Shown: piece after piece, positions 2,425-48,739 of the stretch
Numbering within the stretch: position 1 is the stretch's first letter
Layout of the letters: each line of letters opens with the position of its first letter
Source of the DNA: Candidatus Rifleibacteriota bacterium
GTDB taxonomy: Bacteria > Muiribacteriota > Ozemobacteria > Ozemobacterales > Ozemobacteraceae
Direction of reading: 5' to 3'
Length of the DNA stretch: 56,963 bases
Assembly (NCBI GenBank): GCA_012520995.1
Contig: JAAYNI010000038.1
Coordinates: 1 to 56,963, forward strand
The notes under the pieces: generated by a model
What the model was told of the DNA's origin: nothing
The model's database searches: none
The model's input: only the letters and a program-made list of their open reading frames with translations
Position numbers and translations under genes: made by a program

Positions 2425-3216
2425 TCAATCGTCTTCTTCTATCGGCAAAAATCCCTGACTTTCATTGAATTCTTTTTGAGTATTTTGTTCTTTCAGCAAA
2501 TATTCGGGTGAGCCATCCTCTGGAAGCAGGCGTGTATCAAAGTCCAAAACCGGTCTGGGCAGCTCATTAAGATTTTTAATTCCGAAATAATAAAGAAAAT
2601 CTTGAGTCGTTGAATATAACCTTGGACGGCCTATAACTTTTTTTTCGCCTGAAATATAAATAAGCTTTTTTTCCAGAAGTGTGGAAATAACCCCGTCACA
2701 GTTCACTCCTCTGACAGCATCTACCTCAGCCTTAGTAACCGGTTGCTTAAAAGCTATGACAGAAAGGGTTTCCAAAGCAGGCAAAGAAAGAGAAACCAGT
2801 TTTTGGCCATCCATCTTTTTAATGTAGTCCGAAACCTTGGCTTTGGTAGCCAACTCAATGCCTGAATCAAGCAAAACTACTTGCAAACCCGACCTGCTAT
2901 CTTCATCATATTGATGTTTTCGCATCATCACAAGTTCATGAGCAGCTTCAGGAGAAATTTCCAGAATTTCAGCCAGCTTTTCCACTGGAATAGGCTTATT
3001 ATTAACAAGCAAAATCGCATCCAAAGCAGAAAGCAAAAGTTCCAATTCAGACTGAGGCATATCAGACAATTCTTGTCTATAGGAATCACTTGAATCAATC
3101 TGCGCTCTCTCATCAGTTATGCCTTCATCTGTTTCTGGCACATTGATATTTTCCGCATCTGTATTAATTTCTGGAGTTAATTCAGCAAAGTCGTTCATTT
3201 CTATTGTATCTTGCAT
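2425..3216 (-). CDS. scpB: Segregation and condensation protein ScpB
   Basis: 263-aa ScpB, the winged-helix partner that binds ScpA and SMC to form bacterial condensin. Hallmarks are the first winged helix from about residue 55 (LELLLSALDAILLVNNKPI) and the second domain with LPALETLSVIAFKQPVTKAE, VRGVNCDGVISTLLEK and GRPRLYSTTQDFLYYFG. An acidic N-terminal extension of about 50 residues and an acidic tail are less typical but common in diverged ScpB. The gene begins 14 nt after scpA ends, which is the usual scpA-scpB pairing. The Shine-Dalgarno sequence is weak (AAGAAG), consistent with translation coupled to scpA. Confidence 0.96.
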   Translation of the reverse strand: MQDTIEMNDFAELTPEINTDAENINVPETDEGITDERAQIDSSDSYRQELSDMPQSELELLLSALDAILLVNNKPIPVEKLAEILEISPEAAHELVMMRKHQYDEDSRSGLQVVLLDSGIELATKAKVSDYIKKMDGQKLVSLSLPALETLSVIAFKQPVTKAEVDAVRGVNCDGVISTLLEKKLIYISGEKKVIGRPRLYSTTQDFLYYFGIKNLNELPRPVLDFDTRLLPEDGSPEYLLKEQNTQKEFNESQGFLPIEEDD

Positions 3217-3230
3217 CTTCTTTTTACCTG

Positions 3231-3983
3231 TTAAAAAGCTTGTTTTAAGGCTGTAGGCTTAATATGTATTTCTGAAAAGTTTTCTTTCTGGTTAAAGGTT
3301 ATTTCTCCGGTTTTTGTCATTTCAAGCATAGCCATAAAAGAAAGGACTGTCTCATATCTTGTAGCTTCTTCTGTCAAACGCTTAAAAGTAATATCACCTT
3401 TAAAAGTTTTCAGTATAATCCTAAGCTCATTAATTCTTTCCGCTACGCCAAGTTTTTCCAATACAACATTGTAAACTGGCGGCGCTATCCTGCGTTTGAC
3501 CAAAGCGTGGTAAATACCTAAAAGTTCGTAAGGCCCTACATTTATTTCTAGTATTTCTTCAGGAGAACGTTCGGCATTGGTTTGTCTCACATATATTCTG
3601 GAAGCGTTTTGCTCCATCTCGCGCAACTTTGCAGCCATTTCCTTAAAGCTCTTGTATTCGATAAGCCTTTCTACCAATTCTGCTCTGGCATCTTCTTCAG
3701 CCATTTCTTCGTCATAGAAATCATCAAAATCACTATCCAATGGCCTCTCTTTAGGAAGAAGCATCTTGGACTTGATTTCTAGCAAAGTTGCGGCCATAAC
3801 CAAGAAGTCCGAAGCTATTTCCATGTCCAGTATTTCCATAAGCTGGATATACTCAAGATATTGCTCCGCGACTTGAGCTATGGGGATATCATAGAGATCA
3901 ATCTTTTGCTCTTCAATCAAGTGATAGAGCAAATCAAAGGGCCCCTCGAATACGGGAAGTTTTACCTGATAACCTTCATTCAT
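3231..3983 (-). CDS. scpA: Segregation and condensation protein ScpA (kleisin)
   Basis: 250-aa kleisin subunit of SMC-ScpAB. The N-terminus has the diagnostic FEGPFDLLYHLIEEQKIDLYDIP, followed by the SMC-neck-binding helices (LEYIQLMEILDMEIASDFLVMAATLLEIKSKMLLP, spanning about residues 42-80). An acidic middle and the C-terminal winged helix that contacts the SMC head follow. The start ATG comes directly after the trpS stop codon (TGAATG), so the two genes are translationally coupled. Condensin subunits here, and parB 3.5 kb away on the other strand, place chromosome organisation genes close together; smc itself is not in the window. Confidence 0.96.
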   Translation of the reverse strand: MNEGYQVKLPVFEGPFDLLYHLIEEQKIDLYDIPIAQVAEQYLEYIQLMEILDMEIASDFLVMAATLLEIKSKMLLPKERPLDSDFDDFYDEEMAEEDARAELVERLIEYKSFKEMAAKLREMEQNASRIYVRQTNAERSPEEILEINVGPYELLGIYHALVKRRIAPPVYNVVLEKLGVAERINELRIILKTFKGDITFKRLTEEATRYETVLSFMAMLEMTKTGEITFNQKENFSEIHIKPTALKQAF

Positions 3984-7458: not shown

Positions 7459-8334
7459 ATGAAAAAACTAAACTTAAACACATCATCTGACGATATAAAT
7501 AGACAAGACCGCTTTGCAACTGATCACGAAGAGGGTCTGGATTTCGCTCTGGTTCCAATTGAGGCAATAGTCCCCAATCCGGGTCAGCCGCGAAAGTTCT
7601 TTGAAAAATCAAAATTGGACGAACTCGCCGAGTCAATCAAGCATAACGGACTCTTACAACCAATGCTTTTAAGAAAAACTGGAGACACCTACCAGATAGT
7701 TTCCGGAGAGCGCAGATATCGTGCATGCAAACAAGCTGGATTGCGAAAAATCCCTGCTTTTATCAGGCATATAGATGACAGAGCCACCGACATTGCGGCT
7801 CTGATTGAAAACATTCAGCGCGAAGATTTAAACCCTCTGGAAGAAGCAGCGGCTTTGAAGAAAATATTGCTGAAATACGGCATGACTCACGACAAGCTCG
7901 CAACAAAACTTGGAAAAAGCCGCTCTGCTCTGACAAACAGGCTTAGACTCCTCAAGTTGCCACGCTACACTCAGAATTTGATTGCAAGCGGAACCTTAAG
8001 CACGGGTCATGCAAAAATGCTTGCTGGACTCAATGACGAAAAAGAAATACTCCAATGGAGCCAAAAAATCGTCAACGAAGGTTTGTCCGTTTTTGAAACA
8101 GAAAAACAGCTGAAAATAGCAAAAAAAGCATCACTGAAGCTTGTACGCCAATCATCTAAAAGACCCTCTGCAAAAGATGTTAATTTGAAAGCTGTCGAAG
8201 AAACACTCCAAGAAGCTCTTGGGGCCAAAGTTAAAATATTGCAAAAGAAAAACAAAGGTTCGATTCTGATTGAGTTCTATGATAACGAAGATCTGCAGCG
8301 TGTTGTAGAGCAAATTACTAACATACTACTGTAA
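7459..8334 (+). CDS. parB: Chromosome partitioning protein ParB
   Basis: 291-aa ParB/Spo0J. The N-terminal CTPase domain has VPNPGQPRKFF, ELAESIKHNGLLQPMLLRK and the GERRYRA box at about residues 82-88. A helix-turn-helix parS-binding domain follows (MTHDKLATKLGKSRSALTNR, LSTGHAKMLAGL), then a linker and a C-terminal dimerisation segment (IEFYDNEDLQRVVEQI). ParB loads on parS, slides as a CTP-gated clamp and recruits SMC. Canonical ParA is not adjacent; the only ParA-like sequence nearby is the degenerate domain on the giant protein two genes downstream. The start lacks a Shine-Dalgarno sequence, and TTTAAT (7445-7450) lies 8 nt before the ATG, so the mRNA may be leaderless. Confidence 0.96.
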   Translation: MKKLNLNTSSDDINRQDRFATDHEEGLDFALVPIEAIVPNPGQPRKFFEKSKLDELAESIKHNGLLQPMLLRKTGDTYQIVSGERRYRACKQAGLRKIPAFIRHIDDRATDIAALIENIQREDLNPLEEAAALKKILLKYGMTHDKLATKLGKSRSALTNRLRLLKLPRYTQNLIASGTLSTGHAKMLAGLNDEKEILQWSQKIVNEGLSVFETEKQLKIAKKASLKLVRQSSKRPSAKDVNLKAVEETLQEALGAKVKILQKKNKGSILIEFYDNEDLQRVVEQITNILL

Positions 8335-8348
8335 AAGAGGAAATACCT

Positions 8349-9209
8349 TTGAAAGTAAAATTTTGGGGAGCCAGAGGCTCAATACCCTCTCCTGGACCGA
8401 ATTATACTAAATTCGGCGGCAATACGACTTGCATTGAAGTCTTAACTTCTGAAGGCAGAATTATTATAGATGCAGGCACTGGAGCCCGTCCACTCGGAGA
8501 CGAAATCCTCAGCGAAGGCGATTCTTCCTCTCGCAACATTAACTTTCTGATTACTCACACGCACTGGGATCACATACAGGGGTTCCCTTTTTTCCAGCCT
8601 ATCTTTGAATCAGCCTCAGATCCGAAAAAAGCCCGGAAAATTTCTATTTATGGCCGTGCCAGCACAGGCTCAGATCTTCGCCAAGCTTTTGCAAATCAAA
8701 TGAATAATACCTATTTTCCAGTTCTCATGCGCAATATAGCCGCCAACTTAAAATTCCACGACATTGAGCCTGGAAATTCCTTCAACATTGGCAAAGTTCA
8801 GATAAAAACCGCTCTGTTAAATCATCCAGGCGGAGTATTGGGCTATCGTATTGAAGATAATGGCAAAGTTATAGCAATAGCCACCGACTATGAACATCCC
8901 GAAGACGGCCAAAAAGATGAAAATCTTGAGTATATTGGAAGAGACAGCGATATTTTGATTTATGATGCACAATATACATGCAATGAATACAACGGTTCAC
9001 CAGAAACAGGCGAATCCTCGAAAAAAGGCTTTGGTCACTCAACCCCGAGTAAAGGAGTTGAAGCAGCTAAAGAACTCAATACGAAAATGCTTGTGCTCAC
9101 TCATCATTCACCGTCACATGACGACAAAATGCTGGCTGCAATGGAAACTAATATAAAGAAAAGATTCAACTCCTGCTTTGCCAAAGAAGGATTAGTAATA
9201 GAAATTTAA
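8349..9209 (+). CDS. MBL-fold metallohydrolase
   Basis: 286-aa metallo-beta-lactamase-fold protein. The opening MKVKFWGARGSIPSPGP, the substrate-loop phrase GGNTTCIEV and the metal motif THTHWDHIQGFPFF (about residues 69-82) are typical of a bacterial subfamily often found with regulatory domains. Further metal ligands come from LLNHPGG, IATDYEH and VLTHHSPSHDD. It probably hydrolyses a phosphoester, possibly a cyclic nucleotide, but the substrate cannot be read from sequence. The start is TTG at 8349 with AGAGG just upstream. It begins 14 nt after parB ends, so it is co-transcribed with it. Confidence 0.88.
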   Translation: MKVKFWGARGSIPSPGPNYTKFGGNTTCIEVLTSEGRIIIDAGTGARPLGDEILSEGDSSSRNINFLITHTHWDHIQGFPFFQPIFESASDPKKARKISIYGRASTGSDLRQAFANQMNNTYFPVLMRNIAANLKFHDIEPGNSFNIGKVQIKTALLNHPGGVLGYRIEDNGKVIAIATDYEHPEDGQKDENLEYIGRDSDILIYDAQYTCNEYNGSPETGESSKKGFGHSTPSKGVEAAKELNTKMLVLTHHSPSHDDKMLAAMETNIKKRFNSCFAKEGLVIEI

Positions 9210-9249
9210 ATTTCTGCTTACTCTCCTGTAGTTCCGTCTGAATTTGTGG

Positions 9250-9255
9250 TATATT
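9250..9255 (+). promoter_or_regulatory. -10 box for leaderless start of giant protein 1
   Basis: TATATT preceded by TGTGG, six bases before the ATG at 9262. The expected transcription start falls on the A of that ATG. No Shine-Dalgarno sequence is present. A -35 box is not convincing, but the TGTGG context resembles an extended -10 promoter. Confidence 0.45.
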
Positions 9256-9261
9256 TTCCGC

Positions 9262-12200
9262 ATGTTTCCGGTTCACAAATCAAAACGGATCCTTTTTTTC
9301 AGCGCCTTAGCACCAAACTCTGGCAAGTCCTCACTTCTTGCCGCCCTTGCTGCTATGTACAGAAACAGCGGTTTAAAAACTGCTGTGTTAAATCTGGACG
9401 GAGACTGTCCAGAGAAATTGCCAGCCAAGCTTCGCATACTCGCAGCAATTCAAGAATATGCACAGCTCACGGACGTAATCTTCTCAAGAACCTCAAAATC
9501 CGGGAAAAGCTTTTATTTCACTAACACACATTTAATTTCTTATTTTCCCGCAACAAAGTTAAAAAAAACCTCGGATATAAACCGTGATGTTTCATTGAGA
9601 GACTTTTGTCTTCAACTAGCCTCGTTTTTTGATGTTTTGCTTATTAATCAAAGAGCCTCAAAAAATGAAGTGGCAGCTCTCCCGCGTCTTCTCGCCCAAT
9701 CTATTTTCACCAGAGGCTCAAAAGCTACAGGGATAACCATCTCAGAAGTATCTTACGATTCTATAGTTCAACTGGACTCTGTACTTCAGGAAAACAAAGA
9801 CTTTTATTATTACGCTGCTGAAAAAGGCGTATTTGTTTTTAATCGTAACACACCTTCCGATCCTGACCAGCCATCTCAAACTGAATTAAATAAGCTCTTA
9901 AATTTGCCACGCAGCATGTTTTTTGCTGAAACCCCATTGCTTGATTTTGAATCACGCCACAGCCGTGATCTTTCACAAACCGCACAGCTGAGAGAAAAGC
10001 TCAACAGAGACCTCGCTGCCCTTGACACTTTGCTGTTTGAACCTCTTCTTCCTCAAACCAACGAACATGATGAAGAAACATATTTCAACATTTATGACGA
10101 AGAGCTTAGAAGCAAAATATTTGAAATAGCTGAAAAACTTCAGCAAAAAGCTGCCTCTGCCTTAATGATTCCGACCAGCTTTATTCAAATTTTCTTAGAA
10201 GAAAGCACAGATAACTGCAGAATCCGCTTGCGTATCGCCGATAACAAACAACTGTTTTTGCCGGTTTATGCCCCTATCTCTATAGAATTAGACACTAAAC
10301 CTAATATTAAAACTGAAACAGACTCCTTCTCAACTAAGCCTTTTTTCTCCTATCAGCTCTATACTGCTTACGACACTAAACCCGAGACTTGTGTAATACA
10401 GCTCTCTCCTGTTTATAGCTTTGACGATTCGAAAAATCTGGTTCCTGAAAAGAAAATAGACTCCTCATCCACTTTAAAAATGGCCCGTCCGCTTTACCCG
10501 TCGCCAATTCTTATCCATTATTTGACGACCTTGCCGGATATTCCCACTTTTATGTCCGCATTAGGCCTGGATCCGGTTTTTGACGCAAACAAAGCCCTCT
10601 ATGCTGGAACATCTCTTCCCAAAAGCGTCTACAGCAATTTAACAGCACTAGTGCCTTCTACATTTCTTCTGCCTGAAACCTCATCAAAACCCGCTTTTAT
10701 AAGCAGCTATTCTCTTTCCGAAAAATTATATTCTGCCGCCTCATTCCTATCTTTAGACTATTCACAGGAAATACCCCTAAAACGGCAAAACTTTTTGAGC
10801 TTTGGAATACGCAAATCAGATAAAAAGCCGTTTATATCTGAAACACCTAACCCACAGATAAATCTGGTCTTTAAAACTCCTCAAAAAACTTACTCCCCCT
10901 CTTCTGAATCATCTTCAATAGGCAAATTTCGGATTTTTTCTCCCGAATACTCTCCTCAAGAGTTCTGGACTCCCAAAGTCTCAGACTTCTCAATTGCTCA
11001 AACAGAACCTTTTGCTACTTTAGAAAATCCACTTAAAGCACTTCCTTTAGAAATTGCCTTTGAAAGCCCCATATCACCTTTATATAATGACAAGCCGCTA
11101 GACAATCTCTGGCAAACATACAGCTATAACTCTTCAGATTTTTCAGATATCTACTTGCTTAAGCCTATTTCCGTTTTTTCTGGAAAACCTGATGTATCCT
11201 TGTCAAAAAACATTGCATTTACACCATATCACGATGAAAATCCGCTTTTCCAAGAACCCATCATAGCAAAACCACCTTCCCTTGCTGCCCCTCCTTTTTT
11301 CTATATGGAAACGGACATTGTTCATGACCTTATAGATAAAGCCGCAGATTCATTAGATATTCTGTGTTTTCCTCACAACTGCTCTTTTTTGGAAAAACTC
11401 GATCTTTCTTCAAGAACTGTCCTAGCCTTTTCTAATCTTACCGAGAACAACCAACTCTTCAAAGAACCCATTCTATTACAGAAAGAGTCACTTGCTCTCT
11501 TTTCTTCAGATGAAGAAAAAGCAATTTTTCAAGCTCTAAAAGAGAAAATCTGCCGCCACAAGAAATTTTCTTCTGAGTTTCCTCTCTCTGAAGACCTTCT
11601 CTATATTCCTCGCTCTTCGGTTTACGGACAGATTCCTAACCTATTTCTGAGCAAGCGAGATTCACTCTCCTTAAAAGTCACTCAAGAACTTGCTGAAACC
11701 TTACCCCAGTCTTCACGCTCCTGCGGTTATTCCGTTCTTTCAAGAATCAGCGATATATTGCAGCCTTACATTGGGTTCCAAACCACTTTTGACATACATG
11801 AACCTGTCCTTGCAAGCTTTTCACCATTGCCAGAGAAACCCGAAAACTTGCCGCTGCTCGGATTACAAGCTCCCCCTCTTGCAACAGACAAAGTCAAATC
11901 CGAATCTGCCCATTTAAGGCCCGATGACTTATTCAGCAACACTCCGTTTGCCTATGTACCCTCTCTAGCAAACGAAGACTTTGAGCTCACCTCTCCCTAT
12001 ACTCTCTTCAAGCTTCTAAGCGCAAATAAAGTTGCAGCAACTTTAAACACAGCTGTTGTAAACGAACAGCTTCAAACCTCCTCGACTTTCCATCCGCCCT
12101 TGCTCAAAACCTCTGTTCTCAGCGAACCAGAACCTTTCAACTCCTATTCTTATACTATTTATCTTGCATCGGCAAACCCACGCTACAGAACTTTCTTTAT

Positions 12201-12966
12201 GAGTCTTTCTGAGATGGAATATAAAAATCTCTCTTTGAAAGAATTTGAGCCGCAAATAAACACCCTTCCTGTAAGGCCTTGGTCTTGCGATCCGCCTTTG
12301 ATAAAAGATTACGGAATGACTTATATAGCAGCAAAAATGCCCTCAACCTGCAACTTAATTTATCCGGCAATAGCTGAGAACAACCTATCATTTATTAGCA
12401 ATGCAACCGACAAACTCCCTTTGCTTGAATCAGAGTTTTCTATTTCCACAGCCTCCTATGAAAAAACTCTGCCAAAACAAAAAATTGAAAAACTTTTTCC
12501 GAATATTGCCAAACATACTCCAGAACATCCAGAAGAACCGTCTCTTAGCCTTATTGCAGTGCTAAAAAACAAGCCAGAACTTATATTCTGCGACTTGGAA
12601 GTTAACCGTGAAAAGCTTTCAATTAACACCCCTTCCACGATAGAAGTCTTTTACCAAAATTTGATAAAGGAACTTTACCTGAATACTTTTGTATTATTAC
12701 CCCAATCAAAATTTGAAAAAGAATTTAAAGCAAAGCACAATTTCCTTAAAAACTTTAAATATCTTAAGCAAAAACCGCTTAAGGAAAAAAATGAAAAATC
12801 CGTAGCCTTTACTCTATCAAAGAAAAAAAACTTCACCTCTCGGTCTTCAATCAAAGAGCCGACTTCCATAACCTTCGAACAAGAGTTCCCTGATATAACT
12901 TATAAGGAACTTCTACAAATCATGAAAGACTCCAATGCCGCCTTGGCTCGGATTAAGCAACTATAA
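9262..12966 (+). CDS. Giant unrecognised protein 1: degenerate ParA/MinD-like domain plus about 900 residues of Pro/aromatic motifs
   Basis: 1234 aa counted from the ATG at 9262; an in-frame TTG at 9244 lies inside the probable -10 region, so I reject it. Residues 1-200 resemble a ParA/MinD/CpaE fold: strand RILFFSA, P-loop LAPNSGKSS (G21-K22-S23) with neither the first glycine nor the ParA signature lysine, KTAVLNLDGD as the second strand, FDVLLINQRAS where a Walker B strand is expected, and VFVFNR near the domain end. A small helical/strand region (about 265-325) follows. From about 330 onward there is no recognisable fold: short hydrophobic-aromatic-proline phrases recur every 10-20 residues in Ser/Thr/Pro-rich sequence, with at least one clear repeat pair 70 residues apart. 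The last 100 residues are lysine-rich. Nothing in my knowledge matches it. The position after parB suggests a link to chromosome or cell organisation. Confidence 0.8.
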   Translation: MFPVHKSKRILFFSALAPNSGKSSLLAALAAMYRNSGLKTAVLNLDGDCPEKLPAKLRILAAIQEYAQLTDVIFSRTSKSGKSFYFTNTHLISYFPATKLKKTSDINRDVSLRDFCLQLASFFDVLLINQRASKNEVAALPRLLAQSIFTRGSKATGITISEVSYDSIVQLDSVLQENKDFYYYAAEKGVFVFNRNTPSDPDQPSQTELNKLLNLPRSMFFAETPLLDFESRHSRDLSQTAQLREKLNRDLAALDTLLFEPLLPQTNEHDEETYFNIYDEELRSKIFEIAEKLQQKAASALMIPTSFIQIFLEESTDNCRIRLRIADNKQLFLPVYAPISIELDTKPNIKTETDSFSTKPFFSYQLYTAYDTKPETCVIQLSPVYSFDDSKNLVPEKKIDSSSTLKMARPLYPSPILIHYLTTLPDIPTFMSALGLDPVFDANKALYAGTSLPKSVYSNLTALVPSTFLLPETSSKPAFISSYSLSEKLYSAASFLSLDYSQEIPLKRQNFLSFGIRKSDKKPFISETPNPQINLVFKTPQKTYSPSSESSSIGKFRIFSPEYSPQEFWTPKVSDFSIAQTEPFATLENPLKALPLEIAFESPISPLYNDKPLDNLWQTYSYNSSDFSDIYLLKPISVFSGKPDVSLSKNIAFTPYHDENPLFQEPIIAKPPSLAAPPFFYMETDIVHDLIDKAADSLDILCFPHNCSFLEKLDLSSRTVLAFSNLTENNQLFKEPILLQKESLALFSSDEEKAIFQALKEKICRHKKFSSEFPLSEDLLYIPRSSVYGQIPNLFLSKRDSLSLKVTQELAETLPQSSRSCGYSVLSRISDILQPYIGFQTTFDIHEPVLASFSPLPEKPENLPLLGLQAPPLATDKVKSESAHLRPDDLFSNTPFAYVPSLANEDFELTSPYTLFKLLSANKVAATLNTAVVNEQLQTSSTFHPPLLKTSVLSEPEPFNSYSYTIYLASANPRYRTFFMSLSEMEYKNLSLKEFEPQINTLPVRPWSCDPPLIKDYGMTYIAAKMPSTCNLIYPAIAENNLSFISNATDKLPLLESEFSISTASYEKTLPKQKIEKLFPNIAKHTPEHPEEPSLSLIAVLKNKPELIFCDLEVNREKLSINTPSTIEVFYQNLIKELYLNTFVLLPQSKFEKEFKAKHNFLKNFKYLKQKPLKEKNEKSVAFTLSKKKNFTSRSSIKEPTSITFEQEFPDITYKELLQIMKDSNAALARIKQL

Positions 12967-12967
12967 A
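12962..12967 (+). promoter_or_regulatory. -10 box for leaderless start of giant protein 2
   Basis: TATAAA overlaps the stop codon of the previous gene and lies exactly six bases before ATG 12974, the same geometry as at 9250-9262. No Shine-Dalgarno sequence is present. It could instead be chance AT-richness, with translation coupled from the upstream gene. Confidence 0.4.
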
Positions 12968-12973
12968 AGCACG

Positions 12974-15900
12974 ATGGCTCTTTACACAGACGGATACAAA
13001 TACCAAGCAGTCTTTGACAAATCGCAACCTCAGCAGAGTGCTCGTCCATTTGTCATACGCCGTATCCTATCTTCCGCATCTCGCCCTATACTTGGAAACT
13101 CCTCTCCAAGAAGCTCCTCCAATTCCTCAAATTATCCGAAATGTTTTTCTGCTTCTCCGAACATATACAAGATGGCTGCAAGCTATAAACCATGGAAAGC
13201 CAACCTTAAGTCTTCTTTTTCTGCACCTCGGATGGCAATGGCCGAACCTCACTTCTATTACTTTTTCAAGCAACTATTGCCAAAGAAAAGAAAATCTAAA
13301 GATAGACCGTCTTTTGTTCCTAACACAGATTTTGCATATGACACATTTATAAAAAGAGACATTGCTCAGAGAGACGATTTTGAGCCGGAAACCGTGCTTT
13401 ATGAGATTCCTTTGAATCGCATGCTGGAAAGGCCTTTCAAACAAATTCCTATCAATCAGAGAAGGCTTCATTCATTTAAATTCAAACATCAAAAAATTAC
13501 TTCAGAAATAGAACAGCCACAAAAAAAACTCTCTTCTGTTTTTCTCAGAAAAACCGTCGAAAAAAAACATCCTCTTTCCCCTCTGTCAGGTTTGCTTAGA
13601 ACCAGCAATTATCCTGGCTACAAGAGCAGATTTCAGCCTCTTCACGCCCTCAATTCTTTCGACTTGAAAGTATCCCAAGTTCTGCTTACTGTTAACTTAA
13701 CACCACTTTGGTTACCGAAACTTTCCAGCCGAAAACTGGAATCTGCTTATACAGGAAACCCGCCCGCGTTTGAATCCCTCCTGAGCGAAAACAAAAAACT
13801 CCTGGATTTTGCTCCCTCACAACTATCCAAAACACTACCTCTTTCTATTCTGATAGCTATTAAGCGAGCTGAAAAAGTTCTCACTATGGACAGAACCAAA
13901 CCTGAACGAAAAGAAAAGGCTTGGTTATTCTCAGAGAAAGGCAAAAGACCAAAGCTTCTTACGCCAGCTCTTTTCCAACATTCTCTTAAAACTAAGTTTG
14001 AAACTCCGAAAAGCATCTTTTCTGCGGCCTATGAAAAACTTACACTCACCTCGCCAAGAACAATTGCCTATCCTTTAGAGGCTTCCCTCAAACCTCTTCC
14101 CGATTATTTCGAAACCTCTTCTCAATTGCAAAATGAGAAATTTATCCCCCCTCCTCAAGCCTCCTTTTGTCGCCATAAGTTCCAAAAAGACACTTTATCA
14201 TCCATTGACTCCCCCGCCAAAAAAATATCTAAAGCAGCCAAACATACCTTTAATCCTGGAATCCACCTGGAATCAGCGGATAAAGTTTTCAAGCAAAAGC
14301 ATCTCATCAAGTTTAGAAGATTTTATAAGAGACTGGAAAACAAACCTGCTAAATTGACTTTTATTAGCGATTTATCGGAAGAGCTGAAGGGCACAACACT
14401 CAAAAACATCAAATGCGGAAAACCTTTCACAAAAGCTTCTTATAATAGTGCAACCGCCACACAGCCTTATTTCATGAATCCGCCGGCTTTTATTCTTGAA
14501 GAAGATCATATTGCCTCAGCCGCACTAAATTCTTTACAGTTTAATCTTTTCTCCAAAAAACCATTTAAAAAGTTTAAACCTGGGATTATTTCTGTTGAAG
14601 ATTCTCTGAAAGATTTTGCTCCCTTTTCGCAAGTTCCTATAGAGATGCAGCGAACTACTCACTACTTCCTGCCTATATCCGACTTTCAGGATTTCCATCC
14701 TATACCTATAACTTTTGCGACTTTACAGAAGACTATGAAGCCGGAAGGCATAAAAAAACCATTTTCTGCCAGTCTGCTCGCTCTCGCTGATTTTCTAGCT
14801 CCGAATTTTACCGATCGGCCTATAGAGCCTGACATTAAAGAAGACCTTTATAGAGACTCAATCTATTGCAAACATTTAAAGCCCAAAAACATAAAAGCTT
14901 TAAAACAGGATTCTCCTTCAATAAAGAAAACACCGTTGCCTCGTTCGTTCCTCTACAGAATGACATCATTAGAAGAAGCCGAAATAACTTTCAAATTGCC
15001 TGAACATGTTATCTCAAAATGGATAATAAAATTCAAAGTATCTCCTGAGGCAGCAGTCCATAACGAAATGCTAAAAGCGGATATACTGCCGTTGCCGACT
15101 TGGCAAAAGAAACTTCATTCTTTCCATGCAACGCCCCCCAAATCTTTAAGGGCATTTGATTTTCCAAGGTTCGCTCTTCCCAAACTGGAAGATTTTTCAA
15201 TAGTAACCAAGAAGCATGTTATTAAGCCCAAGAGCCTCTTAGCCCAAAAACTGCCATTTAATTTGGAGTTTTTCCAAAAGAGAGAAAAAATCTACAGAAA
15301 GCCTCTGAACCTCAAAGAGCCTCGACAATTTCTTTTCACCAGAAAAGTTGCCTTTTTCCAGGAAGCATACTCTTCTGAATTAGCAGAACCCCTTTCCCCT
15401 CTTTCTGCTCTGCCTCCGCCACCCTCTTTCCTACCTGAAGCAACTTTCTATCCAAACAACATGAAAAACTGCGAAATCTTTGAGAAATTTAGACTTGCAA
15501 AGGGAAAGACCCCAAAGTTTGCATGCAAACTCAAAATATTTAGACCCCCCTACTCTTTTTCACAAAATATTCTCCCTGATAAAATACACTTTTTTGAAAA
15601 TCTCTTTTCAGCTATCTTCATCAAATTTAATCCTGTCAGTTTACCGGCAAAAATATCACTTAATAAACTGCCAGTATTAAAAGAGCCTCTTTTCAAATCT
15701 TTTTCACCCTCTTTAAACAAACACCACTTTAAAATAAAAGATATTACTGTTGATTCATTCGGGATAATGCCCGTTTTATATATAAAACACCTCTTTCCTC
15801 CAAAGGATATCAAGAGAATAGCCGCTTGGAGTTACAAATTCCGAGTAAAATCTCTATTTGCTGCTTACAAACCTGATTACGCAAGCATGCTTATGTTAAC

Positions 15901-16444
15901 CCGAATCCCCTACTCGGCTGTTAAGCCTGCCAAAAAGCGTAAAAAAATAGAACCGCCCTCATACATTTCACATCAACTTGATGGCAGCTTCAAGGAAGAG
16001 AACTTTACCGCTCTGTTCGAAGAAAAATACCGTCTAGAAGAAATTCATTCCCAAGACCCTGTTAATCCGAAATTAACTTTTTCAGATAAAAGTTTTTCAG
16101 CATTAACCTCAACCTGCATGGAAACCAGATCTGATTTTGAAAAACCTCAAACTTCTATAGAGTCGCCATCTTCAGGCTTCTTTACTTTGCCAATACTAGA
16201 TCACAAAACTGCACAAGAAACTCATAACCACTTCTTAATCGGAGATGCAAAAACTTTCACCCCCTTTTCTTTCAAAAACCCATTCCTATCAAACCAAGAA
16301 ATCTCCTCTCATTACTTAGCAAAAACATCTGTCCAGACACCTTCTAACTTAATACCTTTGTCTGATGTTTTTTGGCTAATAAAATCAGAATTTGAAAATC
16401 CTGATTTAAACTTTAATGATTTTGAGTTACAATCTTTATCTTAA
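12974..16444 (+). CDS. Giant unrecognised protein 2: basic, Pro/aromatic-motif chain
   Basis: 1156 aa from ATG 12974; an in-frame ATG at 12935 would overlap the upstream gene by 32 nt and also lacks a Shine-Dalgarno sequence. The whole protein is rich in Lys, Phe, Pro, Leu and Ser and clearly basic. It is built from phrases such as KPLPDYFETS, KKPFKKFKPGIIS, ALPKLEDFS and LPVLKEPLFKSFSPSL. No signal peptide, membrane segment, coiled coil or known catalytic motif is visible. The style matches the second part of giant protein 1, but with opposite charge bias, so the two may bind each other. The absence of stops over 3.4 kb and the lack of any longer competing frame support real coding. The last about 100 residues turn acidic. 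Function unknown. Confidence 0.75.
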   Translation: MALYTDGYKYQAVFDKSQPQQSARPFVIRRILSSASRPILGNSSPRSSSNSSNYPKCFSASPNIYKMAASYKPWKANLKSSFSAPRMAMAEPHFYYFFKQLLPKKRKSKDRPSFVPNTDFAYDTFIKRDIAQRDDFEPETVLYEIPLNRMLERPFKQIPINQRRLHSFKFKHQKITSEIEQPQKKLSSVFLRKTVEKKHPLSPLSGLLRTSNYPGYKSRFQPLHALNSFDLKVSQVLLTVNLTPLWLPKLSSRKLESAYTGNPPAFESLLSENKKLLDFAPSQLSKTLPLSILIAIKRAEKVLTMDRTKPERKEKAWLFSEKGKRPKLLTPALFQHSLKTKFETPKSIFSAAYEKLTLTSPRTIAYPLEASLKPLPDYFETSSQLQNEKFIPPPQASFCRHKFQKDTLSSIDSPAKKISKAAKHTFNPGIHLESADKVFKQKHLIKFRRFYKRLENKPAKLTFISDLSEELKGTTLKNIKCGKPFTKASYNSATATQPYFMNPPAFILEEDHIASAALNSLQFNLFSKKPFKKFKPGIISVEDSLKDFAPFSQVPIEMQRTTHYFLPISDFQDFHPIPITFATLQKTMKPEGIKKPFSASLLALADFLAPNFTDRPIEPDIKEDLYRDSIYCKHLKPKNIKALKQDSPSIKKTPLPRSFLYRMTSLEEAEITFKLPEHVISKWIIKFKVSPEAAVHNEMLKADILPLPTWQKKLHSFHATPPKSLRAFDFPRFALPKLEDFSIVTKKHVIKPKSLLAQKLPFNLEFFQKREKIYRKPLNLKEPRQFLFTRKVAFFQEAYSSELAEPLSPLSALPPPPSFLPEATFYPNNMKNCEIFEKFRLAKGKTPKFACKLKIFRPPYSFSQNILPDKIHFFENLFSAIFIKFNPVSLPAKISLNKLPVLKEPLFKSFSPSLNKHHFKIKDITVDSFGIMPVLYIKHLFPPKDIKRIAAWSYKFRVKSLFAAYKPDYASMLMLTRIPYSAVKPAKKRKKIEPPSYISHQLDGSFKEENFTALFEEKYRLEEIHSQDPVNPKLTFSDKSFSALTSTCMETRSDFEKPQTSIESPSSGFFTLPILDHKTAQETHNHFLIGDAKTFTPFSFKNPFLSNQEISSHYLAKTSVQTPSNLIPLSDVFWLIKSEFENPDLNFNDFELQSLS

Positions 16445-16455
16445 TAGCCATTCTG

Positions 16456-16484
16456 TTGACTTGAAAATTCAAACTATGTAAAAT
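16456..16484 (+). promoter_or_regulatory. Sigma-70-type promoter for the PP2C gene cluster
   Basis: TTGACT (16456-16461), a 17-bp spacer and TAAAAT (16479-16484). This is the best promoter match in the window. It lies just after the giant protein 2 stop codon and 25 bp before the PP2C start, so PP2C, coiled-coil and TPR genes can be transcribed independently of the giant genes. Confidence 0.75.
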
Positions 16485-16508
16485 AGCCGAAAAGCTTTGG
16501 AGATATCG

Positions 16509-17318
16509 ATGGGTTTTTACACACTTACAAATGTTGGCAAAGTTAGAGCAAACAACGAAGACTTTGCTGAAAGTCTCGAATTCACCACCTGCACTGCAAC
16601 AGGGAAAAAGATTAAGCTTACAGCCCTTATATTAGCTGATGGAATGGGCGGAGCAGCCGCAGGCGAGTTTGCCTCGATGCTAGCAGTTTCAGAACTTAAA
16701 AACTGCATAATTTCGCATCTATGTGCCCAAGGCACCAATGAAATGTTCGAACTGGACAAGCTCGCCCTTATGGAAAGATACTTCCGATCGGCTAACAGCA
16801 AAGTATATTCAGCCTCCTGTGAAAACCCTGATATGGCTGGCATGGGCACAACACTTGTAAGCGGTATAATATTGGAAAACCAGCTTTACTTGGCTCACGT
16901 AGGAGACAGCAGAGCTTATAAATATAATTCTGCAAAAGGTCTTGTGCGCCTCACCAAAGATCATTCTTTGGTTCAAGAATATGTTGACGCAGGCAAAATC
17001 ACTGATGACGAAGCTTTTGAACACCCCGATAACAATGTCATCACTAAAGCCATAGGCATTATGCCTGAAGTCGAATGTGACAAGCAAACCATTCAATTGG
17101 CCGAAGACGACCTCCTAATGTTCTGCTCCGACGGACTTTCGTCTCTTGCAAAAGACGTGCTGATTGCAGATATCATAAAATCCAAATATGCCACTGAAAA
17201 TGGCACAAACCTGCCAGAGCTGGCCAATAGTCTTATAGATCTCGCTAATTTATATGGCGGCACCGACAACGTCACAGTTTGTCTTTATCAGCACAGGAGC
17301 CTACTTACTGATAAATGA
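16509..17318 (+). CDS. PP2C-type serine/threonine protein phosphatase
   Basis: 269-aa PPM/PP2C phosphatase (PrpC/Stp type) that removes phosphate from Ser/Thr using two metal ions. All signature blocks are present: RANNEDF, ILADGMGGAAAGEFAS, GMGTTLVSG, AHVGDSRAYKY, LTKDHSLVQEYVDAG, VITKAIG, MFCSDGLSSL and GGTDNVTV. The metal-binding aspartates in these blocks are intact. It is a stand-alone catalytic domain with no membrane or sensor part. I chose ATG 16509 because GGAG lies 6 nt upstream; an earlier in-frame TTG (16497) would overlap that Shine-Dalgarno. Its stop overlaps the next start (ATGA). No Ser/Thr kinase is in the window. The neighbouring Ser/Thr-rich giants are candidate substrates, which is inference. 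Confidence 0.95.
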   Translation: MGFYTLTNVGKVRANNEDFAESLEFTTCTATGKKIKLTALILADGMGGAAAGEFASMLAVSELKNCIISHLCAQGTNEMFELDKLALMERYFRSANSKVYSASCENPDMAGMGTTLVSGIILENQLYLAHVGDSRAYKYNSAKGLVRLTKDHSLVQEYVDAGKITDDEAFEHPDNNVITKAIGIMPEVECDKQTIQLAEDDLLMFCSDGLSSLAKDVLIADIIKSKYATENGTNLPELANSLIDLANLYGGTDNVTVCLYQHRSLLTDK

Positions 17319-18733
17319 CCCTCCAGAATGACAGCAATGATGAGAAAAAAAGATTAGAGATTGACAGCGATAAAAACTCTTCCGCGGAATCTCTTATCTC
17401 TTCATCTTTTATTGCAGGCTTAAACAATTCTGAAAACTCTTCTCCCTTGCCGGGAGTAGTTCCTTCAGAGAATCCTTCATCTGTCAAAAACTCTATAGAC
17501 CGCTTGCAAGAAGCAGCTGAAACTAACTCGAAAAAGAAGAATCTTCAGACTTCGCCAGATCATATCAAAACCATAAATGATCTGATCCGAGAAATAAATG
17601 TTTTGCGCTCCGCATTAAATATTTGCAAAAACAGTCATGCAGATGAAATAGTAGCTTTTGAAAACCTGGAAGCAAAACAGCAAAATCTTCTAAACCACCT
17701 TAAAACCCAGAAAGCAGTCTTGGAATCAGCAAATTTCGAGACAGAAAATCTCAAAATTGCATATGAACGACAAGCTGAACATATAAACTTGCTTCTGGAC
17801 GAAAATTCAACTCTTCGTCACAAGAACAAGCTTTTGACAGACAAAAAGGACTCCCTGGAGACAGCAGTAAAAAACCTGCTCTTCAAAAACAGCATAATCG
17901 CTGGTTCTCCTTCCCTAATCAATCCGTCAGAAGAACTTTCCGCAAGCGAAATCTCTTACCGTTTTTCTCTTTCGCTGCCATTTTGTTTTCCGGACAGACC
18001 TCCTTTAGAGAGAACCTTCAAAACGGCAATCGCAAGAACCTACAGATATCAGCTTAAACCGGTTGTTACCATAGCGCCCAAAGTTTTTTATATGCCCGCC
18101 GCTGTTGCGGCTCCTAAAACAGAAGCCTTGAGAATTTCATTTGAACAAGAAGAAAAATTCCCAGCCAAGGCAATTTTACAGTATATGATAGAAAAGATGC
18201 GTAATAAAATCCGCATCAACCCTCTAGCTTACAGCCTCTCAAAAAACAAAGTTGAGACATGCTGTGAAAACATACAACAAAGAGATTCTCTTGACTATCT
18301 GACTTTACCTGACAGACTGTCATTCAAAAGAAAAAAAGACGTCAGCTTTTTCATCTCCCATGTTAAAGAAGACGCAGTATATAAAATCGACGTTTTTTCA
18401 CTGGAACTGTATCTTAAATATCTCCTTTCCTGTATTGAATTTATGTCGAATTCCAAGACAGAAGCCAGAAGTTTGGCTAAACATTCTTTTAAGAAAACCT
18501 CTTTTGCAATGCCGATTCTTAAGCTTGCAAAAGAGGTCTTTTTAAACAATTGTCCTGAAAAGCTTGCTTTCCGGACACAATATACACTAAAATCCGCTAG
18601 CCTGAGTTTTGAACGTGAAAACTTTGAATTCACATTCGAAAAAGATACTGGCGATCGCAAACTCTCAAGAGTTCTGGAAACATTCGGAAAAGCTATAACC
18701 AACATGACAAACAATTTGCGCGTTATCAAATAA
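17315..18733 (+). CDS. Coiled-coil protein with giant-like C-terminal half, unknown function
   Basis: 472 aa, no signal peptide. Residues 1-80 are Ser/Asn-rich and probably disordered. About 80-190 form a coiled coil (DHIKTINDLIREINVLRSAL, then heptads to TDKKDSLETAVKNLLFK). The C-terminal half has Phe/Pro/Lys phrases such as YRYQLKPVVTIAPKVFYMP and KKTSFAMPILKLAKEVF, similar in style to giant proteins 1 and 2, and ends in a helical tail. The ATG overlaps the PP2C stop by 4 nt, so translation is coupled and the product is likely to act with the phosphatase. It could be an adaptor that brings PP2C to the giant proteins. I know no matching family. Confidence 0.75.
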   Translation: MTLQNDSNDEKKRLEIDSDKNSSAESLISSSFIAGLNNSENSSPLPGVVPSENPSSVKNSIDRLQEAAETNSKKKNLQTSPDHIKTINDLIREINVLRSALNICKNSHADEIVAFENLEAKQQNLLNHLKTQKAVLESANFETENLKIAYERQAEHINLLLDENSTLRHKNKLLTDKKDSLETAVKNLLFKNSIIAGSPSLINPSEELSASEISYRFSLSLPFCFPDRPPLERTFKTAIARTYRYQLKPVVTIAPKVFYMPAAVAAPKTEALRISFEQEEKFPAKAILQYMIEKMRNKIRINPLAYSLSKNKVETCCENIQQRDSLDYLTLPDRLSFKRKKDVSFFISHVKEDAVYKIDVFSLELYLKYLLSCIEFMSNSKTEARSLAKHSFKKTSFAMPILKLAKEVFLNNCPEKLAFRTQYTLKSASLSFERENFEFTFEKDTGDRKLSRVLETFGKAITNMTNNLRVIK

Positions 18734-18766
18734 GAATACGCAAGCAAATAGAATTTCGGAGGAACT

Positions 18767-20905
18767 ATGAAGCGCACTTACTTACATGACGAAGCCAATA
18801 CCCATTATAATCTCGGGATCGCTTATTATACTAAAGGACAGTATGAACAAGCCATAAACGAATGGGTTAAATCACTGGCCAAAAAGCCTCAGAACAGCGA
18901 AGCCAGATTCAAACTTGGCGTAGCCTATTACCAGTTGAATCGCATTGAAGAAGCTGTTAAAGAATGGCAGCTTGCGCATTCCATAGACCCCGAAAACTTC
19001 GAAGTTTTGCACAACCTTGGAATTGCCTATTATAACAAGGGTGAAGACACCAAAGCCATCGAGTTTTGGGAAAAATGCTTGGAGATCAAATCTGAAGATG
19101 CCGAGATCCACTTCAAGCTTGGTATCGCATATTACAACCTAGGACGCGACGACAGAGCCATAGCTCTTTGGGAAAAAGCATCAAACCTTGATACTGAAAA
19201 TGCGGATATTTTCTTCAGATTAGGCGTAGCTTATTACAACAAAGGCTTAGATGACAAGTCTGTAATCGCTTTTTCCAAATCCATAGACCTTAACCCCAAA
19301 AACCCCGAAGCGCATAATAATCTTGCTATAGTTTTCTACCGCCTTGAAATGTTCCAGCAGTCTATTGATGAGTGGAACAAAGCCTTAGCTCTGAACCCTC
19401 GCCAGCCCGAAATTTTCAACAACCTCGGAAACGCTTACTCAAAGCTGAATCAACATGCCGAAGCTATTTCCACTTGGCAAAAAATTCTGGACATCACTCC
19501 CGACAGCTCCGAGGTCTACTTCAAGATAGGTTCCGCCTATGCAAAGCTGGACGACCTCAGCCAAGCCATAACCAACTGGGAAAAGTGCATATCTATCAAC
19601 CCGAACGATATTGAAGCTCTTTTCAACCTTGGTGTCGCCCAATATAACTCAGGCAACTTCAAAAAGGCCATCTCCTACTGGACCTCAGTTCGCGAGAAAC
19701 GCACTGAAGACGCGGATATTTGTGAAAAAATAGGCAACGCCTATTGCGGACTTGAAGACTACACTGAAGCAGCAAAATTCTGGAATCGTGCCATCTCATA
19801 TGTCACGGATGATCCTCACCTCTTCCACAAGCTCGGTATTGCCTACTCTAAGCTGAATAAAACCCAAGACGCTATTTTCCAGTGGCAAAAAGCCATAGAA
19901 CTGGATCCGGAACATTTTGAAGCCAGACACAACTTGGGTATAGCTTACTACAACCTCCAGCGCTTTGATGAAGCTCTCCAAGAATGGGAACAAGCAAAAA
20001 AAGCCAATCCCAACGATCCGGATCTTTATTTCAAATTAGGCCACGCCTACAGACAAAAACACAAACTGGATAAAGCCATTGCAGCTTGGAGCAAAACCAT
20101 AGAATTGGATCCCAATAATCCAAACGCATACTTTGTTCTGGGCAACGCTTATGATGAAAAAGGCCTTATCGACGATGCTATAATGGCATGGCAAAAAGTA
20201 ATTTCATTGGTGCCAAACGATGTAGATGCTCAAAACAATCTCGGCATTGCCTACTTCCAAAAAGAAATGTATGACAAAGCAATCGCTGAGTGGGAAGATG
20301 CTATCAGAATTACTCCTGAAAACGGAGAACTCTATAACAAGCTCGGTATAGCTTATATTAAAACAGAAATGTTCGACAAAGCCGTGGAATATTGGGAAAA
20401 AGCTCTTCGCTATAAACCCGAAGATTCAGACATTCTTTCGAATCTGGCTACAGCCTATCACAACCGCGAAATGTTCGATAAAGCAATCGATATCTGGAAG
20501 CGTGTTATTAAATATAACCCGCAAGACACAGAAGCTCGCAACAAACTAGGCATAGCCTACTACAACAAGGGTATGTATGACCAGGCCATTGAACTCTGGA
20601 GAAAGGCCATAGAACTCAACCCGACTGATGCGGCAGCCTATTACAACATAGGTACCGAAGAACTGGAAAAAGGCCGAATAAACGAAGCGATAGAAGCCTA
20701 TATGAGAGTTCTTGAAATAGATCCCAAGTTCACTCAGGTTTACTACAACTTGGCGGTAATCTATGCAAGAAAACGCCAGTTCAGAGATTCCATTGATGCT
20801 GCCAACAGATATCTTGCCGCCAACCCGAGCGGAATAGAAGCTGAAAACCTTCAGACTCTTATTGAACAATGTGAAAAAGAAATAGAACAGGAAGCTATGC
20901 AATAA
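18767..20905 (+). CDS. TPR solenoid protein, about 20 consecutive repeats
   Basis: 712 aa made almost wholly of 34-residue TPR units, about 20 by my count. Typical units read NLGIAYYNKG then AIELWRKAIELNPTDAAAY. Seventeen of the 20 units have Trp at the second-helix position where TPRs normally have Phe or Tyr (EW, FW, LW and so on), which is unusual uniformity and suggests repeat amplification or a specialised binding groove. No signal peptide or membrane segment is present, so it should be a cytoplasmic scaffold. GGAGG lies 5 nt before the ATG. It follows the coiled-coil gene by 33 nt in the PP2C transcription unit and closes the cluster. A short acidic tail follows the last repeat. Confidence 0.92.
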   Translation: MKRTYLHDEANTHYNLGIAYYTKGQYEQAINEWVKSLAKKPQNSEARFKLGVAYYQLNRIEEAVKEWQLAHSIDPENFEVLHNLGIAYYNKGEDTKAIEFWEKCLEIKSEDAEIHFKLGIAYYNLGRDDRAIALWEKASNLDTENADIFFRLGVAYYNKGLDDKSVIAFSKSIDLNPKNPEAHNNLAIVFYRLEMFQQSIDEWNKALALNPRQPEIFNNLGNAYSKLNQHAEAISTWQKILDITPDSSEVYFKIGSAYAKLDDLSQAITNWEKCISINPNDIEALFNLGVAQYNSGNFKKAISYWTSVREKRTEDADICEKIGNAYCGLEDYTEAAKFWNRAISYVTDDPHLFHKLGIAYSKLNKTQDAIFQWQKAIELDPEHFEARHNLGIAYYNLQRFDEALQEWEQAKKANPNDPDLYFKLGHAYRQKHKLDKAIAAWSKTIELDPNNPNAYFVLGNAYDEKGLIDDAIMAWQKVISLVPNDVDAQNNLGIAYFQKEMYDKAIAEWEDAIRITPENGELYNKLGIAYIKTEMFDKAVEYWEKALRYKPEDSDILSNLATAYHNREMFDKAIDIWKRVIKYNPQDTEARNKLGIAYYNKGMYDQAIELWRKAIELNPTDAAAYYNIGTEELEKGRINEAIEAYMRVLEIDPKFTQVYYNLAVIYARKRQFRDSIDAANRYLAANPSGIEAENLQTLIEQCEKEIEQEAMQ

Positions 20906-20997: not shown

Positions 20998-21026
20998 AAA
21001 ACATTTCACTCTTTTTCGGGTATAAT
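20998..21026 (+). promoter_or_regulatory. Promoter shared with a decayed paralogue
   Basis: AAAACATTTCAC (20998-21009), 11 bp, then TATAAT (21021-21026). The same 12-mer at the same distance from TATAAT precedes the deleted paralogue at 26469-26497. Both have a long leader (about 130-145 nt) before the start codon. No consensus -35 box is present, so the 12-mer may be an activator site or an unusual -35 region. Confidence 0.6.
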
Positions 21027-21157
21027 GTACTTGGAGGGGTTTTTATTATTGAAAAGTTGCGACAATACTTACTGAAAACCTTCTTCGAAATAACCACACA
21101 TTGCAAACTTTAAAGTTTCTTATCAAACCTCATTCTAGAAGTCTCAGGAGGCTAAAA

Positions 21158-22651
21158 ATGTTCAAAATGCCAAAAGGGTTCAAGTTCTTAACAGTTTTTA
21201 CACTGGTCTTTTCAATACTCTTCGGGCCAATGCTCCCAGAGATTTATGCCCAATCCACAGCTGCTGAAATAGAACAAGCCCAAGCAGATTTTCAACCTAT
21301 TTACAATGAGATAATGAAACTCGAGACTCTGGAAGCTCAAGCCTCAATGTCACTGATGGATTTTGCTTCCGGTGTTCACAACGCTGGCGAATGGATCAAA
21401 GAGAAAGCAGGTGCTGTCGCAGCTTGGTTTACTGGAGATGACAGCCACAAGTATGAAGCCCAGTATGAAGACTATAAGGCCAAGATAGAAGAAGCCAACC
21501 AAGGCATCAGAGATGCCAAGGCACAGGCTCAAGAGATTATGTCACTCATCCAAAGCGGTGACCTTAATGCAGCCAAACAAAAACAAAAAACCTCAGGCTT
21601 TGGTTCACTGGAAGAAGCAGCGTCAGCCAAAAAAGCTCAGCAAGACACCTTAACAAAGGCTGGGACAGACTTAAAGAATGCCGGAGAAGTCTTAGAAACA
21701 ACTGGAACGGTTCTATCGATAGTATCGGCAGCAGCCAAGCTTGCCGCTGCATTATTTCCACCTGCTGCGGGAGCCATTCTTGCAGTCACAAAGATTGCAG
21801 ACGTAGCTATTGATGCGATAGAAATTGGCGGAGCTCTGATGAAAGCTACAGGCGAATCTCTTATTGCCACTGCGCAAAGCGGAATGGTTTCAGACGGAGC
21901 GCTCCTTGGCAACGTTGTAAAAGACGTGGCTGTTGAAGGCGCAAAACAATATGTTACCAGAGTAGCCTCCAAGAAAATAGCAGAACTCGGCTCTAACGCT
22001 CTAAAAGGCAGTAAGGCACTTGCAAGTGCGGGCAAAGAAGGAGTCGAAGAATTAGCAAAAATAGGGCAAAAAGCCACTAAAGAAATAACAGAAGAAATAG
22101 TCGAAAAAGGCACCAAAGAAATAACTGAAGAAATAGTCGAAAAAGGTACCAAAGAAATAACTGAAGAAGTGATCGAAAGAGGCGGCAAAGAAGTAGCAGA
22201 AGCAGCAACTGATGCTATTGTCGACAAAGGAGCCAAAGAAGCCGCAGAAGCAGCTGCAAAGAATGGCGGAAGAATTTGGAACGGTTTAGGATTCAAAACT
22301 ATGCTTTCCAAGAGCAAACCCGTTACCGCTATGTATGAAAAGCTTATGAGCAATCCAAAACTTGGCGAGGATACCCTTAAAGCTTTGAAAGCAGACAAGT
22401 TCTTGGAAGGCGCTATTATGGATATTACAAAAGGCAGCGCCACGTTCTTTGACAAGACCGAGATACTCCCAGTTAAAGTTAGCAAAGTAATTGGTGTATT
22501 TGACAAAGGTGTCACTGGTATTTTGGAGCCAACTGGCTTAGCAAAAGACTATATGGACATTTTCACAACAAAATCTTTAAATAGTATTGATGAAGATGCA
22601 GGCGGATATTTATTTAAAAAACTAGTTAAGGATAAAGTTGGTCTCAGATAA
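21158..22651 (+). CDS. Exported alanine/lysine-rich helical protein, unknown function
   Basis: 497 aa from ATG 21158, chosen because AGGAGG lies 6 nt upstream; an in-frame TTG at 21101 is earlier but unsupported. The signal peptide starts MFKMPKGFKFLTVFTLVFSI and ends at YAQ (about residue 32). The mature part is helical: an acidic N-terminal region, a hydrophobic stretch at about 180-230 (SIVSAAAKLAAALFPPAAGA), and a tandem 12-residue repeat KEITEEIVEKGT at about 307-342. The C-terminus (about 380-497) could be a separate domain. Its leader is shared with an internally deleted paralogue at 26644 and resembles that of a frameshifted gene at 27093. The modular leader plus variable body invites comparison with secreted polymorphic proteins, but I see no toxin motif. 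Confidence 0.7.
   Translation: MFKMPKGFKFLTVFTLVFSILFGPMLPEIYAQSTAAEIEQAQADFQPIYNEIMKLETLEAQASMSLMDFASGVHNAGEWIKEKAGAVAAWFTGDDSHKYEAQYEDYKAKIEEANQGIRDAKAQAQEIMSLIQSGDLNAAKQKQKTSGFGSLEEAASAKKAQQDTLTKAGTDLKNAGEVLETTGTVLSIVSAAAKLAAALFPPAAGAILAVTKIADVAIDAIEIGGALMKATGESLIATAQSGMVSDGALLGNVVKDVAVEGAKQYVTRVASKKIAELGSNALKGSKALASAGKEGVEELAKIGQKATKEITEEIVEKGTKEITEEIVEKGTKEITEEVIERGGKEVAEAATDAIVDKGAKEAAEAAAKNGGRIWNGLGFKTMLSKSKPVTAMYEKLMSNPKLGEDTLKALKADKFLEGAIMDITKGSATFFDKTEILPVKVSKVIGVFDKGVTGILEPTGLAKDYMDIFTTKSLNSIDEDAGGYLFKKLVKDKVGLR
22076..22183 (+). repeat. Three 36-bp tandem repeats inside the exported helical protein
   Basis: Three near-identical 36-bp units encode KEITEEIVEKGT-like segments, and a fourth, more diverged unit (KEVAEAATDAIVDKG) follows. 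Such in-frame repeats can change copy number by slippage. They encode an amphipathic helix or coiled coil. Confidence 0.8.
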
Positions 22652-48654: not shown

Positions 48655-48739
48655 CAGTGGTCAGTGGGAAGTTGGAAGTGGGCAGTGTTCTACTCCCTTT
48701 CCTAGTTCCTAGTTCCTAGTTCCTAGTCCCTACTCCCTA
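48655..48739. repeat. Two period-7 arrays overlapping the adhesin stop codon
   Basis: 48655-48690 holds AGTGGGA-type heptamers; 48690-48739 holds TTCCTAG repeated three times, then TCCCTAC and TCCCTAA. The minus-strand TAG stop of the adhesin (48737-48739) is inside the array. The array fills most of the 171-bp gap to the TolC gene. Confidence 0.85.

Follow-up and report, generated by a model that had tools for sequence, protein, structure and literature searches.

Background

ParABS is the common machine of bacterial chromosome segregation. Here we analyze a window of 56,963 nucleotides, contig JAAYNI010000038.1 (C97) of a 96% complete, 2.84-Mb genome of Candidatus Rifleibacteriota (GCA_012520995.1), which carries a seven-gene operon beginning with parB and coding for two giant proteins, called here giant A and giant B. 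The locus resembles the chromosomal ParABS (Soj/Spo0J) system in that its ParB has CTP-binding, helix-turn-helix (HTH) and dimerization domains, parS-like sites are present, and the operon encodes a protein with a ParA/MinD fold. It departs from ParABS in that canonical ParA is missing, ParB is devoid of the ParA-activating peptide, and the protein of ParA fold, encoded 3' of parB, is a giant whose ATPase motifs are degenerate.

We know of no lineage-specific operon with a pseudo-ParA giant behind the parB of Streptococcus pneumoniae and, to our knowledge, the Pom genes of Myxococcus do not lie within a parB operon. S. pneumoniae does furnish a parallel for ParB without ParA, with parB kept and parA missing (PMC7022226). 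The locus shares with the McdA/McdB system a ParA-family protein lacking the signature lysine, and the McdAB partner is partly disordered (PMC8262871). Unlike in McdAB, the head of giant A has also lost the Walker B aspartate, both proteins are giants, and ParB is part of the operon; no carboxysome or microcompartment genes were detected among the window genes scanned. The PomX/PomY/PomZ system of Myxococcus is comparable in that a ParA/MinD ATPase acts with large partners on the nucleoid (PMC7993993, PMC13170346); it differs in having an active ATPase, PomZ. In our searches, none of which was aimed at PomX or PomY, neither of these two proteins showed similarity to the giants. The original prediction, which knew of no described system with this gene set, is upheld in this respect, as we found none. 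It had overlooked the ParA/MinD-type head of giant A, the loss of canonical ParA and of the activating peptide, and the vicinity of scpAB.

We tentatively propose that parB here heads an operon peculiar to one lineage, whose ParB functions in the absence of canonical ParA and whose giants form a nucleoid-associated scaffold, a reading that we regard as possible rather than probable. It rests on the conserved gene order and family restriction of the operon, the lack of both a Soj-type ParA and an activating peptide in ParB, the degenerate ParA/MinD head of giant A, which forms a separate clade, the dN/dS values, the scpAB neighborhood in four genera, and the excess of parS-like sites over a control.

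A conserved operon restricted to one family

For comparison we used 24 genomes, several of them incomplete, from 11 genera of the Riflebacteria family holding the operon (f1, hereafter the family); the 21 with parB form the base of the adjacency counts. Genomes of Riflebacteria have been reported to carry very many novel gene families each (PMC10849945). The original prediction had described seven plus-strand genes with short or overlapping junctions. All the open reading frames (ORFs) are indeed present and, with starts picked by conservation (ATG at 9262 for giant A, 12974 for giant B and 16509 for the PP2C phosphatase), the gaps are 14, 52, 7, 64, -4 and 33 nucleotides, identical to those originally given. 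Pfam and NCBIfam supply names for ParB (ParB_N, HTH and ParB_C), the MBL-fold hydrolase (Lactamase_B_2), the PP2C protein (Stp1/IreP) and the TPR protein (about 20 TPRs), and giant A, giant B and the coiled-coil protein have no match above the family cut-offs of these collections.

The order parB, MBL hydrolase, giant A, giant B, PP2C, coiled coil (where present) and TPR recurs in the family, and the grouping exceeds chance. parB and the MBL gene are adjacent in 20/20 testable genomes; the MBL gene adjoins giant A in 17 of 19, and all three are kept together in the same proportion, across 8 genera. The exceptions are G001, with genes inserted after the MBL gene (L064:4331-8384), and G019, rearranged at this point (L052:1-13148), with the tail of giant A and giant B together on another contig. 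The junction after the MBL gene, hit by insertion or rearrangement in these two genomes, is thus a vulnerable spot in the operon. Directly 3' of giant A there is another giant ORF in every genome in which this could be assessed (18/18), and giant B is followed by PP2C in 14 of 18, with a small ORF between them in G018. Of the exceptions to the latter linkage, G001 and G005 have a split operon, and G006 and G013 carry two further large ORFs at this position. In genus g7 the extra large ORFs at this position span L066:13683-19672 and L068:12990-18551, and those of 1,499 and 1,446 residues are related to each other; these extra giants have no profile match to giants A or B and are not recognizable as copies of them.

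Genus g11 is devoid of the coiled-coil gene, with PP2C placed directly 5' of the TPR gene. Wherever testable in the family, the TPR gene ends the operon; gene order 3' of it differs among the genomes, and this unshared flank places the end of the operon there. It is followed in the window by a terminator-like hairpin (21011..21039, plus strand), a consensus match only. The two internal promoters that had been predicted are not confirmed, as promoter-like matches occur at the level of shuffled sequence (23 versus 25.7 +/- 5.0), although one 10/12 match (16456-16484) does fall between the giant B and PP2C genes.

A profile of the giant A head (threshold 1e-10) matched 18 of the 24 family genomes and 0 of 358 others, giant B was recovered in 21/24 and in 0/16 other Riflebacteria genomes, and a search of six other Riflebacteria genomes for the 712-residue TPR protein gave no match at E <= 1e-100. 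parB and the giants are not in the assemblies of G007, G008 and G012; G008 is also without the neighboring trpS, and hence a missing contig is likely in its case. Synteny across the family thus bears out the claim that the gene set travels together, and we encountered neither relatives with parB removed from the vicinity of the giants nor giants standing alone in unrelated contexts.

ParB without a canonical ParA

The window parB (7459..8334, plus strand) codes for a chromosomal ParB with ParB_N, HTH and dimerization domains all present and the CTP-binding motifs GERR and ENIQREDLNPLEEA intact. Its score against the NCBIfam Noc model is under the cut-off (222.9 versus 315 bits). The protein has no N-terminal ParA-activating peptide of the GLGRGLGALL type. 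This peptide is kept in ParB of another family of the phylum, f3, in which the N-terminus reads KRGLGRGLGALL or KRALGKGLGALL, and not in ParB of f1 or of a further family, f5. The distribution of ParA follows suit: in the phylum, Soj-type ParA (E < 1e-116) was found only in f3, where it adjoins parB and the four proteins are 68-95% identical to one another, and none was found in the 24 genomes of the family, several of which are incomplete. The ParA relatives present in the latter are only weak ones, of FlhG/CpaE/Mrp-like or plasmid type; the plasmid-type proteins of G001, G006 and G013 are encoded away from the operon, and the ParA-superfamily set of the window genome consists only of FlhG/MinD-like, CpaE-like and Mrp-like proteins. 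In f5 (L070, L071, L072), parB directly follows rsmG with parA absent, as if deleted; as ParB of f5 also lacks the activating peptide, this constitutes a second loss of ParA in the phylum, or a shared one.

Nine candidate parS sites (at most 2 mismatches), one of them exact, were predicted in the window genome, versus 1 in the reversed control. Genes for the SMC partners ScpA and ScpB lie near the operon in four genera: in the window, and likewise in genera g4, g5 and g9, the stretch 5' of parB contains an M16 protease gene, scpB, scpA and trpS. In the window scpB and scpA occupy 2425..3983 on the minus strand, with trpS (3984-4964) beside them.

Giant A: a degenerate ParA/MinD head on a long tail

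Giant A (9262..12966, plus strand) has a length of 1,160-1,240 residues in all but one of 13 complete orthologues; its first ~440 residues are conserved, at 18-30% identity to the window protein. A peptide-pattern search of genome contigs with giant A recovered no relative. Its head (9262..10041, plus strand) adopts a P-loop fold of the ParA/MinD superfamily. Of 17 members, 11 to 15 match CbiA, NUBPL/ParA or AAA_31 profiles; AlphaFold predicts a P-loop domain up to residue ~260 with pLDDT mostly 70-91; and the PDB matches obtained with Foldseek are ParA/MinD-superfamily and related P-loop proteins, including MinD and ParA-family ATPases, at probability 1.00, with low TM-scores when normalized by the query. 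Comparison of sequence with solved structures gave only weak P-loop matches, to this head. The domain is followed by a conserved helix-strand-strand module (10051..10236, plus strand), modeled at residues 264-325, and no order is predicted from residue 327 on in the modeled part. When placed in a tree alongside Soj, FlhG-like, CpaE-like, Mrp-like and plasmid-type proteins, the heads constitute a fully supported clade of their own on a long branch, the window's head being the most divergent sampled.

The GK of Walker A (9322-9327 in the window, plus strand) is kept in all 17 heads, two of which have GKA in place of GK[ST]. The signature lysine (9310-9312, plus strand) is replaced, by alanine in the window and mostly by arginine in relatives, with lysine in G015 only. 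The Walker B aspartate (9646-9648, plus strand) is asparagine in 17/17 heads, and the second A' aspartate is kept only in part. Within this superfamily, such changes in the ATPase motifs predict poor hydrolysis or none; hence, judging from these motifs, the head probably hydrolyzes ATP poorly or not at all.

These features bear on whether giant A is a functional replacement for ParA, with a head of its own that cycles ATP and moves ParB/parS complexes and with its tail and giant B adding nucleoid binding. The ParA/MinD fold, the location of the gene two genes 3' of parB in 17/19 testable genomes and the missing canonical ParA are all as expected under such a proposal, and type 1 McdA still positions cargo without the signature lysine (PMC8262871). 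We nevertheless deem it quite unlikely, given the invariant asparagine in Walker B, the unconserved second A' aspartate, the two GKA heads and a ParB without the activating peptide; moreover, ParB can persist without ParA, as in S. pneumoniae (PMC7022226).

The tail of giant A (10240..12963, plus strand) has a proline every ~11 residues. With a net charge of -7 the window's tail is a near-neutral exception among positively charged relatives, and the Ser/Thr-richness originally ascribed to giant A is not conserved (Ser 3-13% in relatives). Leave-one-genus-out profiles recognize the tail in some genera only, and not in the window (E about 1).

Giant B and the evolution of the giants

Giant B (12974..16444, plus strand) is a very fast-evolving chain whose orthologues are 12-19% identical to the window protein. 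Leave-one-genus-out profiles pick it up in all but one of 10 genera, and do so in the window at E 4.9e-10. It displays a VFD..RR region at the N-terminus and a single central anchor, which reads PFGFP in relatives and is degenerate in the window. Its predicted basic character is conserved, with a net charge of +32 to +146 in 13/13 orthologues examined.

Such extreme divergence, together with an amino-acid composition that appears to track genome GC (Arg/Ala/Pro-rich in g5, Lys/Ile/Asn-rich in others), might be expected of decaying or non-coding ORFs. This explanation is exceedingly improbable: the frames are long and unbroken in all genomes, indels keep the frame, and profiles recover giant B across genera as described above. 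In close pairs, dN/dS is 0.03-0.07 for the head and 0.11-0.13 for the tail of giant A, 0.22-0.35 for giant B, 0.16 for the coiled-coil protein and 0.01 for the TPR protein, these values being approximate because several pairs approach saturation at synonymous sites. Both giants are coding sequences on which purifying selection acts (dN/dS 0.11-0.35).

The original prediction had described the giants as disordered chains of motifs. We saw no convincing internal repeat, periodicity or enrichment of short motifs, and no enrichment of pair spacings survived multiple testing, so that the description as motif chains is not supported. Disorder is plausible from the models: low AlphaFold pLDDT (mean 33 for giant B, from a thin alignment of 13 divergent sequences) favors it, whereas positive FoldIndex values and a scarcity of indels in g4 and g11 unusual for disordered proteins speak against it. 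Although alignment at 30-40% identity may hide gaps, internal gap events per 1,000 substitutions in the giants of these two genera number mostly 0-13 versus 8-47 in folded controls, that is, at or below the controls save for the g4 pair G003-G022 (49); in g5 and g7 they number 23-76. The evolution of the giants thus looks length-constrained in g4 and g11, and simple disorder does not explain fast substitution coupled with scarce indels in these genera. A kinship between giants A and B was also tried and rejected, as Smith-Waterman comparison against shuffles gave no similarity; the tail of giant A against the C-terminal half of the coiled-coil protein scored 68 versus a maximum of 59 in 100 shuffles, which is too weak to call.

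The remaining products of the operon

The MBL-fold metallo-hydrolase (8349..9209, plus strand) has an intact HxHxDH motif and shows 45-50% identity among members of the family; MBL proteins as such are widespread in bacteria. The PP2C-type Ser/Thr phosphatase (16509..17318, plus strand) retains its metal-binding motifs and meets the NCBIfam Stp1/IreP cut-off at threshold (230.2 versus 230 bits). The coiled-coil protein (17315..18733, plus strand), with a C-terminal half in the style of the giants, has a conserved central anchor, LPFCFP (17975-17992, plus strand). The TPR solenoid (18767..20905, plus strand; 712 residues, without a signal peptide) is conserved far above the rest of the operon, with identities of 76-85% between genera and 98-99% within genera (L050, L056, L058 and relatives) and a length unchanged in nearly all.

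That the TPR protein is so much more conserved than the giants would accord with a mixed operon, in which housekeeping parB and MBL genes are co-transcribed with those of a distinct cytosolic scaffold or ruler, made up of the giants, coiled coil, PP2C and TPR protein and unrelated to chromosomes. Such an arrangement is also in line with G001, where PP2C, coiled coil and TPR remain together though apart from the rest, and with the few indels and high substitution in g4 and g11, which suggest a length-constrained structural role. We consider it doubtful, if still a credible contender, since parB, MBL and giant A stay together in 17/19 testable genomes of 8 genera even as the flank 3' of the TPR gene changes, and since giant A bears a ParA/MinD head.

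Other features of the window

Rfam and tRNA scans returned nothing, and searches for anti-phage defence genes gave weak generic matches at most. A 69-residue ORF (26644-26853), 75% identical to residues 20-78 of the protein encoded at 21101-22651, is a partial duplicate near a pilin-like cluster. A 2,740-residue ORF (48737-56959, minus strand) lies near HlyD-type and ABC transporter genes.

Conclusions

Under our proposal of a ParA-independent ParB, ParB at parS would load or organize SMC-ScpAB without being pulled by a ParA gradient. The head of giant A, with its GK kept, may bind nucleotide or dimerize with little or no hydrolysis, and the tail of giant A, the basic giant B and the coiled coil might together build an extended, multivalent scaffold that is associated with the nucleoid and surrounds the ParB/SMC region. 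PP2C could then tune the phosphorylation of this scaffold, and the rigid TPR protein may be a conserved hub for other partners. In its strongest form, in which ParB clamps are tied to the pseudo-ParA giant and the basic giant in a length-defined, PP2C-regulated nucleoid scaffold with no ParA motor, it would amount to a new chromosome-organizing apparatus, which we hold to be somewhat unlikely.

Several points weigh against the proposal. Co-transcription can join unrelated functions, and the physical or genetic interactions proposed among the products are hypothetical. With the operon in separate pieces in G001 and G005 and extra giants within it in g7, its parts need not all be adjacent; giant B of g7 was not recognized by the leave-one-genus-out profile. 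The window's contig has no good parS, and low pLDDT obtained from 13 divergent sequences is no proof of disorder.

Nevertheless, we have here a whole family that is without both the motor and the activating peptide, and yet keeps a ParB tied to a unique operon with a degenerate ParA-fold giant. The family thus offers a natural test of the role of ParB without ParA and of whether ParA-type folds serve as non-motor scaffolds. It may be that chromosomes are handled in these bacteria in a hitherto undescribed manner.

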